A stretch of DNA of 23,636 nucleotides. It comes from a virus. The notes under the pieces are model-generated. The model was not told the DNA's origin and did no database searches. It saw only the letters and a program-made list of their open reading frames with translations. Below are positions 4,917 through 16,704 of this stretch, in pieces (within the stretch, counting starts at the first letter, position 1; every line of letters starts with the position of its first letter). Location of the stretch: positions 1-23,636 of IMG/VR virus record IMGVR_UViG_3300033153_011099. One strand, 5' to 3'. A program made the translations under genes and the position numbers.

Positions 4917-5291
4917 TCACAAGTTAGCCGAAGCCGATTTAGTTTTTGGATTAGACCATATAACAATCTTTCCCTTATATTTCTTTGGACACATATTTTT
5001 AGTTTTATTAAACCTTGAAATCCATAAACATTTACAATAATATTTCTTCTCAATTTTCTTATACAATTTTAATTGATTCTTACTACAAATTTTATTAGTT
5101 TTAAACTGAAATAAATAAATTCTTTTATCTCCTTTATTCCAACCAATTGCATCAAATTCACATCCAGAGAAATGATAATCTTTTAAGAACCGAGAGTGCG
5201 GAAACGTATAAAAATCTCCAAATCCTAATTCAATTAACTTTTTCTTAATTAATTTATTTGTTGTTTGCATTTTACTTCTTTTGTTTATCAT
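4917..5291 (-). CDS. PD-(D/E)XK-like nuclease (Holliday-junction-resolvase-like)
   Basis: 124 aa. The core reads CEFDAIGW, then about ten residues, then YLFQFKTN: Asp47 followed by Gln62-Phe-Lys64, the QxK variant of the PD-(D/E)XK catalytic site found in resolvase-like and viral nucleases. An N-terminal helix (NKLIKKKLIELGFGD) precedes it. Several Cys occur in the second half (residues 69, 86, 88, 101). It starts with an ATGA overlap on the Dam-like gene, so it is the last gene of the methyltransferase operon. Besides junction resolution, it could be a restriction-type nuclease partnered with the methyltransferases; no cognate specificity can be read. Confidence 0.6.
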   Translation of the reverse strand: MINKRSKMQTTNKLIKKKLIELGFGDFYTFPHSRFLKDYHFSGCEFDAIGWNKGDKRIYLFQFKTNKICSKNQLKLYKKIEKKYYCKCLWISRFNKTKNMCPKKYKGKIVIWSNPKTKSASANL

Positions 5292-5785
5292 TTTCTAAAT
5301 ATTACAATCATTAGAGGTTTAATATATCCTATTTTACCTTTTGGTATTTCTCCAGTATCTCCATTATCATTTCCAAAATTAAATCCCTGTTTAGGTTTCT
5401 CTAAAAATCTAATTTCAGTATTTTCTCTTGGTTTATTCTTTTCTTTATCCCAAATAAATTTATGAAAATATCTTGTATGTGTTGATGATGGAAGCAACAT
5501 AACTGTTATACATTTAGAATTAAATGCTTTCTCTACAAACTTTCCTATGTGCATATCAAACAAAGGATGTAAATAGACAATTTCCCCTGTCCAGTCTTGT
5601 TTTAAACAATCTCTTTCTTTTGTATAATATTTCTTAACCAAATGATTTTTATCAGAAGCACAAGCATCAAGAGTGAAATTAAACTCTTTAGATAATTCTT
5701 CCCAGATGTCTTTAGGGGTTCGTAAATATAACATACTTTTACTTGTGCTAAAACTTAATGTATTTTTTTGTATTGTTCTTTTCAT
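5288..5785 (-). CDS. Phage-type DNA N6-adenine methyltransferase homologue, probably inactive
   Basis: 165 aa. Layout matches the phage Dam family: TPKDIWEELSKEF, then LDACASDKNHL (39-49) for the DPCA-like element, DW before the catalytic strand, LLPSSTHTRYFHKFIW (97-112), IRFLEKP and a final PLMIVIF strand. The catalytic strand, which should read xxNPPY, is VYLHPLFD (70-77): Asn becomes His, the second Pro becomes Leu and Tyr becomes Phe. That should disable methyl transfer unless it works otherwise. It overlaps both neighbours by ATGA-type junctions. An intact relative of the same family lies at 8572-8961. It may keep DNA binding or act as a dimer partner. Confidence 0.8.
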   Translation of the reverse strand: MKRTIQKNTLSFSTSKSMLYLRTPKDIWEELSKEFNFTLDACASDKNHLVKKYYTKERDCLKQDWTGEIVYLHPLFDMHIGKFVEKAFNSKCITVMLLPSSTHTRYFHKFIWDKEKNKPRENTEIRFLEKPKQGFNFGNDNGDTGEIPKGKIGYIKPLMIVIFRK

Positions 5786-8349
5786 TCAATCACCTCTGGC
5801 TCAGGATATAAATTCCTATTTCCTTTTCTATCAAACATTAATCTTTTTTTCATTAATTCAACATAATCTGGTTTAATTTCAATACCTATGGAATCCCTAT
5901 GTAAATCTCTTGCAACTTCTAAAGTTGTTCCGCTTCCTGCGAATATGTCCATAATAACTGCATCTTCTTTTGTTGTCTTAATTGGCGTTTCTACTAATTC
6001 TTTTGGGAAAACAGCAAAGTGTGCTCCCTTATATCCTTTTGTTGTAATGTCCCAAAAATCTCCTGGATTACTTCCTAAAGGATTATTCACAATCGCATTT
6101 GGTTTTAATTCTGTATAAGTAATTTGTTTATCATAATTATCAGGAAATTTCAACATGGTTTTCATAGTAATCCAATCTTCTTTTGAGGGATAAGCAAATC
6201 CACTATCATCTTTCCTAATCCAATGCCTCCATTTATGTTCTCCAAACTCTTCATCTAAAGTATCTTCAAATCCATTAGTCCATTCTTTTAAAAATTCTGT
6301 GATTTCTTCTTGTGTTGGAAGATTTGGTCTAACTTCAATTAATTCTTCTTCATCTCTATTCATTCCTTGTCTCCATTGCCAAGATTCAATCATATCTCCT
6401 GGAGTTTTTCCTTTTGGATGTCCTAAATGATTCTGAACATAATCTTTTAAAAACTTTAATTCAGATTTTGATAATTCAATTTCTTTTTCTAATATCTTTA
6501 AAGCATCTCTATATGATTTACAATTTTTAATTGTTTCATTCCAATTTTGTTGGGCTATAGATTTTCCCTTATAATTTGATTTTCCTCTAATTCCTTTTTT
6601 AATTTCAAATAATCTTTCTATTAATTCTTGTTCTCTTCCTGTTTGAATTATGTCTCCTGGATTTTTGCCTTTTGGATTACAACCCCTATCCATAACATCT
6701 TTTTGTACTCCTTTAACATTTGCTCTCTTATAATTATCTGTCCAAGTTACCCCATATTTCTTTATTGCATTAATTTTTCTATCTCTTCTTTCTAAACTTT
6801 CGGTTTTATGTGGAACTCTAACAACATCTAAATCAAAAAAATATTTTTTATTTTTACTAAAGAAAAAAAGATATTCCCAAGAACATTTAAATCTATCTTT
6901 TACGCTAGTTGGCATACAGTTATGAATTAAAGTACCAGAATTTGTTGAAAACAAATGTGGTTTTTTTTCTAGAACAATATCATAATAAACACAATTATTA
7001 TCATCCTTTTCTATTGAAATTATTTCATATTGTGATTTACTATTAAAATGATTTGATTTTTTAAATCTAATTTCTCCCATATATGATGGATATTCTTTAT
7101 TTTCTATTTTTGAAGTAGTTTTTTTTAAATATATTTTATAATTCAATCTTGCACATATGGTTCTTAAATCATTCGCCAAAAAATCATTTCTTGTAAATGA
7201 TAGTCTAAATCTATTGTTTGATTTATCAAAATGCCCATCCCCTGAGAGATAACCCTTTAAAATATTCTTTAAAAATTCATTGTTCCTTTGCCAAGATTTT
7301 GTTGTTAAATGTTTTGTTTTAGCATTTTTTCCAGAAATATAAGAATCTATTATCCCTTTTAACACCTTAATATAAATATTTAAAGACATACAATTTCCAT
7401 CTCTTTTAAAAGATAAACATCTTTCATCATATTTCCCTGCGAAAATTTTTAATTTTTTATATCTCTCTGTTTCTTTTATATGAGAACAAAACTGCAAACA
7501 TTTTTCATTATCTCCTTTTGAACCTTCTGCTAAATATAAACCAATTAACCACCCTATATCATCAGGTATTAGCTCTACATCTTTTTTATTATCTGGCAAG
7601 GTACAACTTTCTAAAATCATTCCTTTTTTCAATTCATTAGTATGTAATAACCTATTTTGTTCCATAGTAATCTTAAATTTGTGATTTAGTGTTGCTCTTA
7701 TCTCTTCCCCACTTCTTAGATTTATTTTTAAAACATCATGGGGGTTATTGTTTTTAATCCATTTTTCTACTTGATTCCACTTTTCACCATCCCATAATTT
7801 AACTGTTTTAGGATTTAATCTTACTAAATCTTTTAATGTCTGTGGAAATATCCCCCTCTGTGTTTTAGCATATAAAACAGTATCATAACTTAAACAATTT
7901 CTTTTATACCAAATTATTTTGTTTCTTAATATCCATCCCCGATTAATCATTTCTAAAACAAATCTTTCAGGGATACAAATTAAACATTTTTCTCTATATT
8001 TTCCTTTTAATTTTCCTTGAGGTCTTCCTTCTTTTATTTGTGGGATAGCTCCTTCTTTTAAAACTCCGCTCCCTTTTGGATGAATGCTTCCACCAATATG
8101 CCCTCTTGCATAAGTATCCCCAATATTAACCCAACAAGTTCCATCATCTTTTAAAACTCTTTTTACTTCATCAAAAATATCGCAGAGTTTTTTTATATAT
8201 AAATCAAAAGTCTTCTCTAAACCAATCTGTCCATCAATGTCATAATTTCTTAATCCCCAATATGGTGGAGAAGTTATTTGCATATCTACACTTTTATCTG
8301 GCATTTGTTTTAATGCCTTCATTACATCCATATTATAGATTTTAATCAT
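5782..8349 (-). CDS. DNA methyltransferase (SPPY type, probably N4-cytosine) interrupted by an intein
   Basis: 855 aa from ATG 8349, chosen because GGAG lies 7 bases upstream; a TTG at 8355 gives two more residues. Motif IV is TSPPYW (SPPY at 27-30) and the AdoMet motif DIFAGSGTT is near the C-terminus (801-809), the order of beta-class N4/N6 methyltransferases; SPPY favours N4-methylcytosine. An intein (Cys152-Asn477) splits the conserved WYKRN/CMPTSVKDR segment; without it the enzyme is 529 aa. The central region has three copies of a G/NxPxGxNPGD motif (about 557-566, 643-652, 755-764) separated by helical inserts that probably read the target. No restriction enzyme is evident beside it; likely role is self-protection or epigenetic control. 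The start overlaps the uL29-like gene by 8 bases. Confidence 0.92.
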   Translation of the reverse strand: MIKIYNMDVMKALKQMPDKSVDMQITSPPYWGLRNYDIDGQIGLEKTFDLYIKKLCDIFDEVKRVLKDDGTCWVNIGDTYARGHIGGSIHPKGSGVLKEGAIPQIKEGRPQGKLKGKYREKCLICIPERFVLEMINRGWILRNKIIWYKRNCLSYDTVLYAKTQRGIFPQTLKDLVRLNPKTVKLWDGEKWNQVEKWIKNNNPHDVLKINLRSGEEIRATLNHKFKITMEQNRLLHTNELKKGMILESCTLPDNKKDVELIPDDIGWLIGLYLAEGSKGDNEKCLQFCSHIKETERYKKLKIFAGKYDERCLSFKRDGNCMSLNIYIKVLKGIIDSYISGKNAKTKHLTTKSWQRNNEFLKNILKGYLSGDGHFDKSNNRFRLSFTRNDFLANDLRTICARLNYKIYLKKTTSKIENKEYPSYMGEIRFKKSNHFNSKSQYEIISIEKDDNNCVYYDIVLEKKPHLFSTNSGTLIHNCMPTSVKDRFKCSWEYLFFFSKNKKYFFDLDVVRVPHKTESLERRDRKINAIKKYGVTWTDNYKRANVKGVQKDVMDRGCNPKGKNPGDIIQTGREQELIERLFEIKKGIRGKSNYKGKSIAQQNWNETIKNCKSYRDALKILEKEIELSKSELKFLKDYVQNHLGHPKGKTPGDMIESWQWRQGMNRDEEELIEVRPNLPTQEEITEFLKEWTNGFEDTLDEEFGEHKWRHWIRKDDSGFAYPSKEDWITMKTMLKFPDNYDKQITYTELKPNAIVNNPLGSNPGDFWDITTKGYKGAHFAVFPKELVETPIKTTKEDAVIMDIFAGSGTTLEVARDLHRDSIGIEIKPDYVELMKKRLMFDRKGNRNLYPEPEVIE
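6919..7896 (-). other. Intein with LAGLIDADG homing endonuclease inside the methyltransferase
   Basis: 326 aa. It starts at Cys (CLSYDTVLYAK), has a block-B TLNHKF (Thr and His at the expected spacing), and ends HLFSTNSGTLIHN followed by Cys as the +1 extein residue, so all splicing residues are present: Cys1, block-B His, penultimate His, terminal Asn, Cys+1. Two endonuclease motifs are visible, IGWLIGLYLAEGS and LKGYLSGDGHFD, with an acidic residue in each. The intein is therefore predicted to splice and to be capable of homing. Junction codons checked: TGT at 7894-7896, AAC at 6919-6921. Confidence 0.93.
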
Positions 8350-8575
8350 TTTCAATCTCCTTCTCTCTCAAAATAGTGTTTATTTTAGCAATATATATCT
8401 TTAAATTTCTTGTCAAAGAAGTTTTTTGCCCAGTCTTTCCTCCTAATTTTTTAGAATATTTATCCTTAGAATCCACTGCCATAGGAGACATAGATTTAAC
8501 TAATTCAAGTTCTATTTCTTTTTTCATCTTAAGTAATTCTTCAACTTTTAATTTCCGTAGGTCTGATGCTTTCAT
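8342..8575 (-). CDS. Ribosomal protein uL29-like protein
   Basis: 77 aa. The N-terminal helix KASDLRKLKVEELLKMKKEI followed by ELELVKS, and the C-terminal helix TRNLKIYIAKINTILREKE, both match the two-helix hairpin of uL29 (consensus: basic-x-x-LR-x-(S)-xEEL...ELxxEL, then RxxIARIxTIxxEK). The linker KKLGGKTGQKTS is basic and Gly-rich as in archaeal uL29. Length is normal for the family. It sits between two DNA methyltransferase genes, with an ATGA overlap upstream and an 8-base overlap downstream, not in a ribosomal protein operon. It may join the host 50S subunit or have taken on a new role. A chance two-helix lookalike is the main alternative. Confidence 0.6.
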   Translation of the reverse strand: MKASDLRKLKVEELLKMKKEIELELVKSMSPMAVDSKDKYSKKLGGKTGQKTSLTRNLKIYIAKINTILREKEIEND

Positions 8576-8961
8576 GTTAATTTGGTTTGTGTCTTTTTAT
8601 TTAATATCACCAACATACTTGGAAAGTTTGCAGGAGTTCCTTTATCATTATTTACATTAGGATTTCTGAATCTTAATCTTTTATGAACAAATAAAATGTG
8701 TGCATTAGATTCAACTAATTTAAAATACCATTTTGTTGAAGTATCAACCCTCAATAATAATGCAATTGTTTTTCCTTTTTTATTTTCTTCAATAGCTTTC
8801 TCAACCCATTTAAGAGGAGAACTATAAGGAGGATTAACATAAGTTTTATCTTTCCACTCCATACTTAAACCATCTTTTGAAGGATTAGGATCTAAGGGAC
8901 ATGGGTCAAACCATTCTCCAAATATTTCTTTAATCCAGTTAGGTGTTATCCAATTATCCAT
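8572..8961 (-). CDS. Phage-type DNA N6-adenine methyltransferase
   Basis: 129 aa, short for the family (usually about 150-170). It has the expected order: TPNWIKEIFGEWFDPCPLDP (6-25), WKDKTYVNPPYS with catalytic NPPY at 43-46, KWVEKA helix, LLLRVDTSTKWYFKLV (68-83), LRFRNP and a final PSMLVIL strand. All catalytic-side motifs are present, so activity on adenine is likely, in contrast to the degenerate copy at 5288-5785. It follows the 38-aa zinc-finger gene by 8 bases and overlaps the uL29-like gene by ATGA. Probable role is modification of the element's DNA. Confidence 0.87.
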   Translation of the reverse strand: MDNWITPNWIKEIFGEWFDPCPLDPNPSKDGLSMEWKDKTYVNPPYSSPLKWVEKAIEENKKGKTIALLLRVDTSTKWYFKLVESNAHILFVHKRLRFRNPNVNNDKGTPANFPSMLVILNKKTQTKLT

Positions 8962-12257: not shown

Positions 12258-12428
12258 ATGAAAGACAAAAGATTAAGGCGAAGATGTAATTCTTGTAAAA
12301 AAAGAGTAAACTTAAAAATAGTCAGAAGAGGAAAAAATCTATTTCTAAAATGCCCTAATTGTTTAGCCGAAGCAAGATATTTTAATCAAAAAAATTACGA
12401 AAAAAGAAAGAGTGAGTTGTTGCATTAA
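12258..12428 (+). CDS. Small zinc-ribbon protein, last residues altered by transposon insertion
   Basis: 56 aa as it stands, with CNSC (10-13) and CPNC (32-35) and a very basic composition; probably a nucleic-acid-binding zinc ribbon. The transposon enters after base 12412, so the final codons (SELLH, stop) come from its terminal repeat. Removing the transposon and one target copy joins AGAAAGAG to AAAGGTTTAA, giving an original ending RKV and stop, 54 aa. The zinc-binding body is untouched, so the protein should remain functional. Confidence 0.65.
   Translation: MKDKRLRRRCNSCKKRVNLKIVRRGKNLFLKCPNCLAEARYFNQKNYEKRKSELLH
12405..12412. repeat. Target-site duplication, left copy
   Basis: AGAAAGAG directly before the left inverted repeat; identical to 14836-14843. 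Eight bases is the size made by IS6-family transposases. Confidence 0.85.
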
Positions 12429-12437
12429 GTGGACTTA
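12413..12437 (+). repeat. Left terminal inverted repeat
   Basis: 25 bases beginning TGAGTTGTTG and ending GGACTTA, identical to the reverse complement of 14811-14835. Contains TAAGTGGACTTA, itself a near-palindrome. Confidence 0.92.
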
Positions 12438-12454
12438 TGAGTAAATCTTATTAA

Positions 12455-12514
12455 AGTATTATATACTACTCTATCACCACAATATTTATAAAGGTTAAAG
12501 TATTATATAATACT
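12455..12514 (+). promoter_or_regulatory. Transposase promoter flanked by two operators
   Basis: TATA box TTTATAAA at 12485-12492, 22 bases before the ATG (leaderless). A perfect 16-bp palindrome AGTATTATATAATACT occupies 12499-12514, abutting the ATG, and AGTATTATATACTACT (15 of 16 identical) occupies 12455-12470. Each is preceded by TTAA. The two sites, 44 bases apart, bracket the TATA box, and the operon encodes a ribbon-helix-helix protein that could bind them and repress its own transcription. Confidence 0.6.
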
Positions 12515-13411
12515 ATGGAAACAAAAGAAATATTATGTCCAAAATGTAAGAGTAAGGAGATAATTAAACGAGGATTAATTAAGAATGAGAGTAGAGAATT
12601 TACTCAAAGATATGGATGTAAGAGTTGTAATAACAGATTTGTTCTTGACAATCCTTTCTATCGCATGAGAAACCAAGAACAAATTATAACTCAATGTATG
12701 GATTTATATTATTCTGGTATGAGTTTTAGAAAGATAGCAGACCACTTAAAAAGATTTTTTCCTAAAAATGTTAATGCCTCAACTATCTACAGATGGGTTA
12801 TAAAATATGTTGGAGTAATGGCAAACTTCACAGATAAACAGAAAACTCAATTAGGGCAAGAGTTAGAATGTGATGAGGTTGAATATCATAGGTTAGGTAT
12901 GAAGAATTGGTTTGTTGATAGCATTGATACAAAAACTCGTTATGTTGTTTATTCAAAATATATTCAAGAAAGAAACACAAATGAATTAATTAAGTTTTAT
13001 AAGAAGGTTAAGATTAGAACAAAAGGGCAAACAAAAATAGTTAATACAGATGGTTTAATGGCTTATCCAAGAGTTCTAAAAAAGACATTCGGATTAAAAA
13101 CATATTGGAAACATAAGAAAAGTAGTAAGATTATTCACAATATTAGAATTGGCTCATCTGGAGATTTTAATTGCAAGATTGAGAGATTTCATAACACATT
13201 AAGAGAGAGAACAAAAGTTATGCGTGGCTTTCATGGTTGTATAAGTTCTGCACAAACTCTTATGAAAGGTTTTGAAATTTATTATAATTGGATAAGAAAT
13301 AATCTTGCTCTTGAAGGACAGACACCTTCTCAAATTGCAGTTCCTAATGTTCAAATTGAAAATAAAAATGGGTGGTTGGAATTGATACAGAGAGGTTACA
13401 ATGGCAGATAG
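12515..13411 (+). CDS. DDE transposase, IS6/IS240-like
   Basis: 298 aa. An N-terminal zinc ribbon (CPKC 8-11, CKSC 35-38) and a helix-turn-helix (about 67-95, FRKIADHLKRFF and TIYRWV) precede a DDE core: Asp120 in LECDEVEY, Asp179 in VNTDGLMAYP, and Glu223 in NCKIERFHNTLRERTKVMRG, followed by the usual GFEIYYNWIRNNLALEGQTPSQIA tail. This arrangement and the 8-bp target duplication fit IS6/IS240. It cuts and joins the element's ends. Full length, no frameshift, so presumably active. The stop overlaps the start of the RHH gene. Confidence 0.9.
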   Translation: METKEILCPKCKSKEIIKRGLIKNESREFTQRYGCKSCNNRFVLDNPFYRMRNQEQIITQCMDLYYSGMSFRKIADHLKRFFPKNVNASTIYRWVIKYVGVMANFTDKQKTQLGQELECDEVEYHRLGMKNWFVDSIDTKTRYVVYSKYIQERNTNELIKFYKKVKIRTKGQTKIVNTDGLMAYPRVLKKTFGLKTYWKHKKSSKIIHNIRIGSSGDFNCKIERFHNTLRERTKVMRGFHGCISSAQTLMKGFEIYYNWIRNNLALEGQTPSQIAVPNVQIENKNGWLELIQRGYNGR

Positions 13412-13553
13412 AAAAACAACATCAATTAAAATTAATCCTGATATTTGGGATAAATTTAAGATTTATGCTATTCAGAAAAAGGTTGATATGTCTGATATTT
13501 TAGAGGAGATGATTAAAAAGGAGTTGAAAAAAGATGGTGGAAAAGATAGGTGA
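13401..13553 (+). CDS. Ribbon-helix-helix protein of the transposon
   Basis: 50 aa. TTSIKINPDIWDKFKIYAIQ then DMSDILEEMIKKELKK: a short strand followed by two helices, the CopG/Arc/MetJ fold. Members bind DNA as dimers at palindromes. GAGGT lies 4 bases before the ATG; the gene overlaps the transposase stop by 11 bases and the methyltransferase start by 20, so it is embedded in the operon. Probable repressor of the transposon operon through the palindromes at 12455-12514. Confidence 0.75.
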   Translation: MADRKTTSIKINPDIWDKFKIYAIQKKVDMSDILEEMIKKELKKDGGKDR

Positions 13554-14574
13554 ATTAGATTTAAATAAAGTTTATTGTATGGATTGTTTTGAAATGTTAA
13601 AGAAAATACCAAATAATTCAGTTGATTTGGTTTTGATAGACCCTCCATACTTTCAAGTTATGAAAACTGATTGGAAGGGAGGAAAACATAGTTGGGATAA
13701 TCAATGGAAAAGTTTAGAAGATTATATTAAATGGATTAGAAAAATTGGAAAGGAGATTAAAAGGTGTTTGAAGTTAAATGGTTCTTTTTATATATTTACA
13801 GATGATAAGGTTTGTGCTTATGTTCAAGTAGAATTAGATAAACTATTCAATCTTGAAAATTCTATAACTTGGGTTAAACCAAATAATTTAACTATAAAAG
13901 GGTGGAATTTATATCGTAGTTATTCAAGTATAACCGAAAAAATATTGTTTTATTCTAACGAAAGTAGAAACACTAATTTAGAAAATCCTACTTACGCAGA
14001 AAATGTAAGGGTGTTTGCCCCCATTATAGAATATATGATTGAACAAAAGAAAAAGATTAAAGAATATTTTAAATTTAAAACTGATAGAGAATTTAATGAG
14101 TATGTAAATAAAATAACAAATACAAGAAGTGTTGTTTCAAGACATTATTTTACTTATTCTCAATGGGTTTTTCCTACTAAAGAAATATATCAAAAACTAC
14201 AAACTATAAATAATGAAGTCTTTAAAAAAGAATATGAAGTCTTTAAAAAAGAATATGAAGTCTTTAAAAAAGAATATGAAGAAAAGAGGAGATATTTTAA
14301 TCCTTCTAAAAATTTTACTGATGTTTGGACATTTAATATAATGGGAGGGAAAGAGAGTCTTGGAAAACATCCAACACAAAAACCAATAGCTATTATTAAA
14401 CGAATTATAAGAACATCATCAAAAGAAGGAGATATTGTTTTAGATTGTTTTATGGGTTCTGGAACAACAGCAAAAGCAAGTAAGGAATTAAGGAGAAAAT
14501 TTATTGGATGTGATAATAATAAAGAATATGTTAATTTAACAAACAAAAGATTACAACAGGAGGTTCTATGGTAG
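13534..14574 (+). CDS. DNA adenine/cytosine-N4 methyltransferase carried by the transposon
   Basis: 346 aa. Motif IV IDPPYF (DPPY at 36-39) near the N-terminus and AdoMet motif DCFMGSGTT (304-312) near the C-terminus give the beta-class order; DPPY favours N6-adenine. KHPTQKP just before motif I is typical. Residues about 95-225 hold the target-recognition region. Residues 228-248 are three exact copies of EVFKKEY, followed by EEKRRY, forming a charged helix of variable length. AAGGAG lies about 10 bases upstream of the ATG. As a passenger gene it may mark transposon or host DNA, regulate transposition by methylating the ends, or act as a lone epigenetic enzyme; no restriction partner lies in the transposon. 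Confidence 0.9.
   Translation: MVEKIGELDLNKVYCMDCFEMLKKIPNNSVDLVLIDPPYFQVMKTDWKGGKHSWDNQWKSLEDYIKWIRKIGKEIKRCLKLNGSFYIFTDDKVCAYVQVELDKLFNLENSITWVKPNNLTIKGWNLYRSYSSITEKILFYSNESRNTNLENPTYAENVRVFAPIIEYMIEQKKKIKEYFKFKTDREFNEYVNKITNTRSVVSRHYFTYSQWVFPTKEIYQKLQTINNEVFKKEYEVFKKEYEVFKKEYEEKRRYFNPSKNFTDVWTFNIMGGKESLGKHPTQKPIAIIKRIIRTSSKEGDIVLDCFMGSGTTAKASKELRRKFIGCDNNKEYVNLTNKRLQQEVLW
14215..14277 (+). repeat. In-frame tandem repeat, 3 x 21 bp
   Basis: Three identical 21-base units (14215-14235, 14236-14256, 14257-14277), each starting GAAGTCTTTAAA and encoding EVFKKEY. No base differs between copies, so expansion was recent or copies are kept identical. Confidence 0.95.
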
Positions 14575-14795
14575 ATAAAAACAAACTACTTGCAACAGCA
14601 TACATAAATCTTATCCAAGATAACAAAGGAGAAACACAATTTGAATATGGTTATGATTTAGATAAGGTTAATGTTAGTTTGAATGATATTGCTATGTTTC
14701 TGTCCTTTTTAGATACCTTGCAGAGCAAAGCAGAGCAGGATTTTAAGGATAGATTAGATGTGCAGGAAAAGAAATTTGAGATAACTAAAGAATAA
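14568..14795 (+). CDS. Hypothetical protein, last gene of the transposon
   Basis: 75 aa, not recognised. Acidic, with a likely strand-rich first half (GETQFEYGYDLDKVNVS) and a long helix (about 41-72). CAGGAGG is 5 bases upstream of the ATG, a strong ribosome site inside the methyltransferase gene, and the frames overlap by 7 bases. It ends 15 bases before the right inverted repeat. Possible partner of the methyltransferase; function unknown. Confidence 0.65.
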   Translation: MVDKNKLLATAYINLIQDNKGETQFEYGYDLDKVNVSLNDIAMFLSFLDTLQSKAEQDFKDRLDVQEKKFEITKE

Positions 14796-14803
14796 TTTTT
14801 TTT
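14796..14803 (+). terminator. T8 terminator of the transposon operon
   Basis: Eight T directly after the last stop codon and before the right inverted repeat: an archaeal-type U-tract terminator that would keep transcription from leaving the transposon. Confidence 0.55.
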
Positions 14804-14810
14804 GGTTATC

Positions 14811-14835
14811 TAAGTCCACTTAATGCAACAACTCA
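14811..14835 (-). repeat. Right terminal inverted repeat
   Basis: Exact reverse complement of 12413-12437 over 25 bases; ends ...CAACAACTCA at the transposon border. Confidence 0.92.
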
Positions 14836-14843
14836 AGAAAGAG
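14836..14843. repeat. Target-site duplication, right copy
   Basis: AGAAAGAG directly after the right inverted repeat, matching 12405-12412. Confidence 0.85.
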
Positions 14844-15214: not shown

Positions 15215-15640
15215 ATGAAAAATAAAAAATCACAATCACAAATCATAACAATAGTATTAATAATTTTATTAGTTTTATCTGCGATTGTAATTGTTTGGCA
15301 GGTTGTTATGGGAACAGATTATGAACCAGAATTATTTAGAGAAGAAGCTTGTAGAAATCTATATTATGAGGATGAAAAAGGATTTATGGTTTTATATCCT
15401 CCATTTGTAAAATTAATTGACGATGTGGAAAAAGAACTAAATATGAGTGTGGATTCTCATAGAACAAAAGGAAAATGGGCGGGATGTTCTGGACTTGATG
15501 GATGCCAAAACATTGATTGTAGAATCCATGCAACTATGTGTCATCCTTCAAGATACGAAAGTGGTTACTGTGTTGATGTGGATTTAAATTTAATAATAGA
15601 TTATGAAAAATGGAAAGAGTGGTGGGAGACAAATAAATGA
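15215..15640 (+). CDS. Secreted, membrane-anchored M15-like protein, probably non-catalytic
   Basis: 141 aa. MKNKKSQSQ plus a hydrophobic helix (10-31) is a class III-like signal or anchor. The outer part has DSHRT (80-84), like the SGYRT of M15 peptidases, and SRYESGYCVDVDL (112-124), like SRHxxGxAVDxD, but the zinc-binding His is Tyr114 and no WxH follows near the C-terminus. Cys at 46, 91, 97, 102, 109 and 119 could form three disulfides. Family assignment is tentative: it may be a peptidoglycan-enzyme fold reused for binding. Ends with an ATGA overlap on the NUMOD3 nuclease gene. Confidence 0.6.
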   Translation: MKNKKSQSQIITIVLIILLVLSAIVIVWQVVMGTDYEPELFREEACRNLYYEDEKGFMVLYPPFVKLIDDVEKELNMSVDSHRTKGKWAGCSGLDGCQNIDCRIHATMCHPSRYESGYCVDVDLNLIIDYEKWKEWWETNK

Positions 15641-16704
15641 AATTTAAAAAAGGACACATACCCTGGAATAAAGGAAAAATCGCATCTAAAGAATTAAAAA
15701 GAAAATTAAGTGAATCTCATAGAGGAAAAGCTTTATCTAAAGAACATAAAAAAAATTTAAGCAAAGTTGCTAAAGAGAAAGGTTTTGGAAAATGGATGAA
15801 AGATAGAAAACTTCCAGATGAAACAAGAAAAAAAATTAGCAAAAAATTAAAGGGACATAAAAAATCAACAACAATTAATTATCACAAACCAAAATCAGAA
15901 GAACATAAAAGAAATATTAGTTTAGGTCGTATAGGTATGAAAATGAGTGATAAAACAAGAAGAAATATGAGTAAATCGAGAAGAGGGAAAAAAAGAAAAC
16001 CATTTACAGATATAACAAAAAAGAGGATGAGTTTAGCTCAAACTGGAAAGAAAATATCAAAAGAAGCTAGAAAAAAAATGAGATTAGCAAATTTAGGAAA
16101 AAAGATAAGTAAAGAAGTTAAAGAAAAAATAAGTAAAAGTAATATGGGACATATTGTTACAGAAGAGACAAGAAAAAAGATAAGTGAGAAAAATAAGGGA
16201 AAAAGGGTTTCAGAAAAAGCAAGAAGAAATATCAGTTTAGCACATAAGGGAAAACCTAGCGGAAAAAAAGGTAAAAAAGTATCAGAAGAAACTAAAAAAA
16301 GACTAAGCAAAAGCCATAAAGGACAAAAACCTTGGAATAGAGGAATCCCTTGTTCAGAAGATACGAAAAGGAAAATAAGCGAGGGTAATAAAGGTAAAAA
16401 GGTTTCAGAAGAAACAAAGAGGAAAATAAGGTCATCATATGTTAAAAAGGTGCGGGATATATTATATCCTTGCATTGGTCATAATGAAAAGCAAATATTA
16501 GATAGATTAGAAAAAAAGATAAACCATAAAATTTTAAGGCAGTTTGAAGTAGAAGGATATTATCTAGATGGTTATATCCCAGAAATGAATGTAGCAGTAG
16601 AAGTAGATGAGATACCTAAAAATAAAGAGAAAGACATTAGAAGACAAGAAATTATAGAAAAAAAATTAAATTGTAAGTTTATAAGAATAAAAGATTTTGA
16701 TTAA
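15637..16704 (+). CDS. Nuclease with 13 NUMOD3-type DNA-binding repeats
   Basis: 355 aa, extremely basic. Residues 17-272 are about 13 units of roughly 17 residues on the pattern SxETRKKISxxxKGKKV, starting near 17, 34, 60, 87, 104, 124, 141, 158, 175, 192, 216, 240 and 257, with two PWN(K/R)G elements (9-13, 232-236). These are NUMOD3-like modules used by homing endonucleases to contact DNA. The C-terminal 80 residues form a PD-(D/E)XK/EDxHD-like nuclease: Asp311 in YLDGY, VEVDE (321-325), KDIRRQEIIEKKL and FIRI; the usual GH after VDE is replaced. Probably a free-standing homing or invasion nuclease. Starts by ATGA overlap. Confidence 0.8.
   Translation: MKFKKGHIPWNKGKIASKELKRKLSESHRGKALSKEHKKNLSKVAKEKGFGKWMKDRKLPDETRKKISKKLKGHKKSTTINYHKPKSEEHKRNISLGRIGMKMSDKTRRNMSKSRRGKKRKPFTDITKKRMSLAQTGKKISKEARKKMRLANLGKKISKEVKEKISKSNMGHIVTEETRKKISEKNKGKRVSEKARRNISLAHKGKPSGKKGKKVSEETKKRLSKSHKGQKPWNRGIPCSEDTKRKISEGNKGKKVSEETKRKIRSSYVKKVRDILYPCIGHNEKQILDRLEKKINHKILRQFEVEGYYLDGYIPEMNVAVEVDEIPKNKEKDIRRQEIIEKKLNCKFIRIKDFD

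Follow-up and report, generated by a model that had tools for sequence, protein, structure and literature searches.

An IS6-like transposon with a solitary DNA methyltransferase in a virus record: a probable cargo-carrying unit of a DPANN-centred clade

To our knowledge, elements of the IS6 family of insertion sequences (IS) spread genes only as flanking pairs (pseudo-compound transposons), and single-unit cargo is known from one member. Transporter IS (tIS) are described in other IS families and consist of one transposase and two inverted repeats around passengers unrelated to transposition. The published IS6 family is essentially transposase-only, as an earlier note on this DNA had stated, and the 2021 review names a single passenger-bearing member, ISDsp3 (PMC7986276). 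The stretch analysed here, called the window, is the whole 23,636 nucleotides of a 23.6-kb virus record (IMG/VR IMGVR_UViG_3300033153_011099), the carrier. At 12413-14835 it contains a 2,423-bp IS6-like element with genes for a transposase, a ribbon-helix-helix (RHH) protein, a DNA methyltransferase and a 75-residue product. The element is likely to be a cargo-carrying unit transposon of the tIS kind, belonging to an IS6-like, DPANN-centred clade, with the methyltransferase as exchangeable, restriction-protective cargo under RHH control. Of the interpretation in the earlier note, the complete transposon with a methyltransferase is retained; the methyltransferase as a built-in self-marking device gives way to exchangeable cargo. 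ISDsp3 is likewise an IS6-type element with a passenger gene but, compared by description only, carries one hypothetical gene and is bacterial (Dehalococcoides). Features of the element and its insertion site are as follows (ORF, open reading frame).

12258..12428, + strand: small zinc-ribbon-like ORF of the carrier, its 3' end struck by the insertion.
12405..12412: left copy of the target site duplication, AGAAAGAG, 8 bp (sequence).
12413..12437: left terminal inverted repeat, TGAGTTGTTGCATTAAGTGGACTTA, 25/25 (sequence repeat comparison).
12451..12470: operator-like repeat 1, TTAAAGTATTATATACTACT, 19/20 to repeat 2 (repeat search, shuffles).
12485..12492, + strand: TATA-like box, TTTATAAA, 23-30 nt upstream of the transposase ATG (sequence).
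12495..12514: operator-like repeat 2, TTAAAGTATTATATAATACT, immediately before the transposase start codon (repeat search, shuffles).
12515..13411, + strand: IS6-like DDE transposase, 298 aa (profile matches, alignment, predicted structure).
13401..13553, + strand: Arc-like RHH protein, 50 aa, probable repressor (profile matches).
13534..14574, + strand: solitary DNA methyltransferase of the beta class, with DPPY preceding FMGSG; adenine type judging by motif (profiles, motifs).
14213..14281, + strand: 21-bp tandem repeat, three exact in-frame copies (EVFKKEY x3), in the middle of the methyltransferase gene (repeat search).
14568..14795, + strand: 75-aa ORF without convincing relatives (homology searches).
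14811..14835: right terminal inverted repeat, perfect complement to the left (sequence repeat comparison).
14836..14843: right copy of the target site duplication, AGAAAGAG (sequence).

The boundaries are sharp. The inverted repeats are perfect over 25 bp, pairing fails from base 26, and no other perfect inverted repeat in the window reaches 18 bp. The 8-bp flanks AGAAAGAG are identical at both sides, and the direct repeat is not extendable to 9 bp. The complete IS6-like transposon claimed by the earlier note is thus confirmed, with the methyltransferase, the RHH protein and the small partner inside the ends of one unit. All four genes lie on the + strand, with successive overlaps of 11, 20 and 7 bp that make translation as a single coupled operon probable. 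Only one copy of the element is present in the carrier record. In the zinc-ribbon-like ORF the left repeat supplies a new C-terminus (...EKRKSELLH stop) in place of ...EKRKRKV stop; because only the last residues are replaced, the insertion is nearly silent.

The transposase comprises an N-terminal four-cysteine zinc ribbon, a helix-turn-helix region and an RNase-H-like core, with catalytic D120, D179 and E223 invariant across 34 relatives. It matches PF13610 DDE_Tnp_IS240 at 4e-8, above the gathering score. Its best NCBIfam match is IS6 (NF033587, 1.4e-23) at 83.6 bits, against a curated cut-off of 125; all 34 relatives match the same model. Profile comparison with two annotated IS6 transposases gave 99.9% probability. 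The predicted structure (pLDDT, predicted local distance difference test, 84) matches DDE transposases and integrases (ISCth4, TnsB, retroviral integrases), and its modelled core is of the DDE/RNase-H type; no IS6 structure is among the PDB matches listed. The IS6 end consensus GGTTCTGTTGCAAA (PMC6807381) starts with GG; the window end TGAGTTGTTGCATTAAG keeps G2, G7, G10 and TGTTGCA, but not GG. Because the score is under the NCBIfam IS6 cut-off and the ends do not start with GG, the element is filed as IS6-like and not as an IS6 member. It shares with the IS6 (IS6/IS26) family a DDE transposase with IS6 as best-matching profile, the end core GTTGCA and an 8-bp target duplication, and with IS6 clade h an N-terminal zinc finger (PMC7986276). 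It differs in size and content (2.4 kb and four genes against 0.7-0.9 kb and a single transposase gene), and in its ends, which start with TGA and are 25 bp long; most of the related clade makes 9-bp duplications. Harmer and Hall argued that archaeal 'IS6' elements form a separate group, and the residues past the catalytic E of the window transposase fit neither their bacterial nor their archaeal signature (PMC6807381).

Relatives were gathered by scanning genome contigs and by surveying 371 DPANN genomes. The scan query was a steered pseudo-alignment in which two rows were invented to aim patterns at conserved motifs; a tblastn search with the actual transposase confirmed every match from the genome scan. 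A transposase match at E <= 1e-60 was present in 31 of the 371 genomes. Identity is 41-53% for the main clade. The element finder required similar ends and a target duplication; end pairs that were poor or duplicates were dropped (L043, L140, L113, L029, L117, L133, L142, L141, L139, L132; L numbers designate loci). Forty distinct related elements were bounded, almost all from DPANN archaea, with lengths of 1.6-8.3 kb (median 3.7 kb). When exact duplications were required, the ends of 36 of the 40 matched each other with no more than 5 mismatches in 20; the control, in which left and right halves from different loci were cross-paired, always showed 9 or more. The target duplication is 9 bp in 31 elements and 8 bp in nine. 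All 40 carry cargo; a transposase-only member was not found among them.

DNA methyltransferases of several unrelated families are carried by 16 of the 40 elements; the majority belong to the beta-class or permuted N6/N4 types, whereas those of L122 and L137 look like C5 enzymes by motif. Recognisable restriction enzymes stand beside the methyltransferases, inside the ends, in five elements: MvaI/BcnI type (PF15515) in L034; MjaI type (PF09568) in L124; HinP1I type (PF11463) in L136, with an 85%-identical counterpart in L147; and a match to the REase_II profile in L044. Other cargo, in part named by eye only, includes ABC transporter genes, an aminotransferase with a radical-SAM protein and a short-chain-dehydrogenase-like gene, a RelE-like toxin, a Fic protein, a CAP-domain protein and a ClpP-like protease. 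A methyltransferase family of 260-263 aa (72-90% identical) recurs in L030, L032, L115 and L035; in the first three it is accompanied by a partner of 177-206 aa, of no recognised family, which is a candidate uncharacterised restriction enzyme.

Cargo has been exchanged between near-identical transposase backbones in this clade. Transposases 90-92% identical carry unrelated cargo. L022, L024 and L028 share about 90% DNA identity over nt 1-1300, a stretch that reaches from the left end as far as the transposase stop; beyond it they have nothing in common. L018 and L026 show the same pattern, with the transposase half alike and the cargo unrelated. Conversely, L136 and L147 have one restriction-modification (RM) module in common (84% DNA identity), inverted, in different backbones. 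Mapped on the transposase tree, methyltransferase presence must have changed 11 times or more. The window transposase belongs there to a group of nine with a support of 99 (SH-aLRT, Shimodaira-Hasegawa-like approximate likelihood ratio test), in which only the window element and L136 have a methyltransferase.

A chance neighbourhood, in which an IS6-like element captured a viral methyltransferase once and no wider pattern exists, is very unlikely and the least probable of the alternatives weighed. The closest relative of the window methyltransferase (56% identity) adjoins a terminase-like gene in a viral contig and has no such ends, and the carrier itself encodes three further DNA methyltransferases; both facts suit such a capture. 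The same relative bears in part on the proposal of the earlier note that methyltransferase and RHH genes outside these repeats would speak against one mobile unit: a methyltransferase homologue without the repeats does exist. Against a single capture stands the clade, in which 40 of 40 bounded relatives have cargo. With cargo methyltransferases as seeds, 16 methyltransferase ORFs lie in the 155 kb of element sequence, whereas the 253 kb of flanking sequence contains none.

The methyltransferase, of adenine type judging by its motifs, matches PF01555 N6_N4_Mtase at 2e-46, and its best matches are to type II methyltransferase profiles (PDLC03265, 2e-65). Other relatives are phage and plasmid enzymes at 29-36% identity, and it resembles the solitary phage and plasmid beta-class adenine methyltransferases (MboIIA, DpnA, CcrM; phrog_67) in fold family and motif order. 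It differs from these in sitting inside a transposon, under an RHH gene. The EVFKKEY tandem repeat is possibly a length-variable spacer.

The type II profile matches, and the complete methyltransferase-restriction enzyme pairs of the sisters, would also suit a decaying remnant of complete RM cargo, in which the endonuclease was lost, the RHH protein is the controller and the 75-aa ORF is a relic. Profile searches of the element's proteins found no restriction enzyme, and hence no such pair, in the window element. Its genes are nevertheless all intact and overlap closely, leaving neither a gap nor a pseudogene in place of an endonuclease, and the 75-aa ORF matches no endonuclease family, its relatives being one marginal match each in genomes and PHROGs. 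A remnant is accordingly unlikely, though it is the strongest of the alternatives.

Dam methylation times IS10 transposition to hemimethylated, newly replicated DNA. The earlier note had suggested a self-marking role, possibly with methylation timing transposition or protecting the element. On the model of IS10, the methyltransferase would mark the element's own ends or promoter and so time transposition to such DNA. The probable translational coupling of the methyltransferase with the two preceding genes of its operon, those for the transposase and the RHH protein, is in keeping with self-marking, as is the recurrence of the RHH-methyltransferase pair in L047. The sister elements speak otherwise. 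The nearest sister transposases (L018, L019, L110, L111) have no methyltransferase, methyltransferases elsewhere in the clade differ in family and specificity, and near-identical transposase halves bear unrelated cargo. For four sisters, recognition sites were inferred from the restriction-enzyme families, which we take to be CTAG for the MjaI type (L124), CCNGG for the MvaI/BcnI type (L034) and GCGC for the HinP1I type (L136, L147). L124 has no CTAG in the element against 9.5 expected, with 21 in 9.0 kb of flank; L034 has no CCNGG against 5.1 expected; L136 has no GCGC against 1.7 expected; L147 has two GCGC, one of them within an end. Since the inferred sites are absent from the whole of L034, L124 and L136, methylation at them cannot mark the ends of these three. 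End-marking would predict that RM-bearing sisters keep the cognate site in their ends; three of four do not, which fits cargo purged of its own sites. In the window element the ends are free of GATC, GANTC, GAATTC and GAAGA, and no palindromic motif is enriched or depleted after correction (GANTC p=0.005, 111 tests), so that depletion gives no specificity. Self-marking was not borne out and is considered improbable, only slightly ahead of chance capture.

The reading as a transporter element with exchangeable cargo is preferred, and its likely working is as follows. One transposase would mobilise everything between two long inverted repeats, binding the 25-bp ends and inserting the whole 2.4-kb unit. 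The RHH protein would bind the repeat around the promoter and repress the tnp-RHH-MTase-orf75 operon after establishment. The solitary methyltransferase, as RM-type cargo, would protect carrier and host against restriction enzymes of the same specificity, and would stay outside the transposition chemistry.

The promoter region agrees with such control. Two 20-bp repeats that differ by one base lie on either side of the TATA-like box before the transposase; a 19/20 pair was reached in 0 of 2,000 dinucleotide shuffles. The spacing of the box fits a leaderless archaeal transcript. The RHH protein matches the Arc-like repressor phrog_3180 at 3.5e-6 and Pfam RHH_3 at 8e-4, the latter slightly below cut-off. 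RHH proteins typically bind tandem repeats such as this pair, and because the pair flanks the TATA-like box, autorepression of the operon by the 50-aa protein is plausible. In L047 an RHH gene stands immediately upstream of the methyltransferase gene. In several sisters another kind of small protein, zinc-ribbon or AbrB-like by eye and putatively DNA-binding, is encoded close to the transposase. A conserved zinc-ribbon ORF of 47-60 aa (CxxC...CPKCKS..WDKPPRKK) lies just upstream of the transposase and divergent to it in L018, L028, L040, L048 and others; AbrB-like ORFs replace it in other clade elements.

Several points weigh against the preferred reading. Neither a second copy of the window element nor an empty site was found in the record, the viral contigs or the 371 DPANN genomes, and movement of the unit is for this reason deduced from its ends and its sisters. 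The search for other copies with the same ends, advised by the earlier note, gave no copy of the 25-bp end with up to 3 mismatches in the 371 genomes, and seven chance-like matches to its 17-bp core across viral contigs, none with a transposase. Viral contigs were also scanned with single sequences as queries, namely the transposase, the carrier zinc-ribbon ORF and the carrier ATPase, and no relatives emerged. The window transposase is on a long branch of the tree. Because its seeds were taken from within the elements, the methyltransferase density test has an inflated inside count. The preferred reading does not account for the 75-aa partner, which may be a subunit of the methyltransferase or a factor in transposition. 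Among the sisters, L124 was examined for an empty site: its left flank is conserved in many genomes and its right flank is not syntenic. Most insertions of related elements are intergenic, so interrupted genes yielded no empty-site proof.

The window element has the properties of a tIS: passengers between two ends, a target duplication, and cargo exchange among sisters. It differs from the tIS of other families in that neither a clade-wide cargo habit in IS6-like elements nor RM cargo in DPANN was found reported; literature searches, with many subscription papers outside their coverage, turned up no account of IS6-like elements with cargo, nor of any in DPANN that carry RM. The clade is hitherto uncharacterised, and what is new is a tIS whose transposase is IS6-like and whose clade as a whole habitually carries cargo. 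RM is reported to be under-represented in tiny DPANN genomes (PMC12988326). A wider proposal is offered tentatively: DPANN archaea and viruses may host an IS6-like cassette transposon lineage with obligate cargo, replaced right after the transposase stop codon, which would be a main vehicle for type II RM systems and solitary methyltransferases in these reduced genomes. If true, a clade-wide cargo habit with recurring RM modules would explain the movement of defence genes among tiny DPANN genomes and onto their viruses. The same transposase half with different cargo forms a natural series for how a single-transposase element swaps its load.

The carrier host is probably a DPANN archaeon, judging from the transposase's kin. 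The carrier has 3 GATC against 66 expected (maximal-order Markov estimate) and no GGCC against 8.7 expected; GCGC and CCGG are also absent from the whole window. The avoidance of GATC and GGCC suggests strong restriction pressure. Since the carrier avoids these sites and encodes methyltransferases of its own, a protective methyltransferase would be a sensible load. Two Dam-family genes flank an intein-bearing methyltransferase gene, and with the transposon enzyme the record has four DNA methyltransferases. Further carrier features, all from profile matches, are as follows.

5288-5785, - strand: Dam-family (PF05869) adenine methyltransferase.
5782-8355, - strand: DNA methyltransferase of the beta class, split by an intein that has a LAGLIDADG domain (PF14890, PF14528).
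8572-8961, - strand: second Dam-family (PF05869) adenine methyltransferase.
15637-16704, + strand: repeat-rich protein, 355 aa, matching phage homing endonucleases (phrog_314, 7.5e-19).

Three further loci were observed. L015:3932-6515, on a viral contig, has an IS6-like transposase (33%) followed after 26 bp by a different, 529-aa DNA methyltransferase-like gene; inverted repeats were not found at this locus. L056 is a Chloroflexi element of 1,578 bp and may be kin to ISDsp3. L035:2558-6723 has two ends of different end subtypes (..GCGGTTGGT and ..AAGGGACTT), which suggests a hybrid of two elements.

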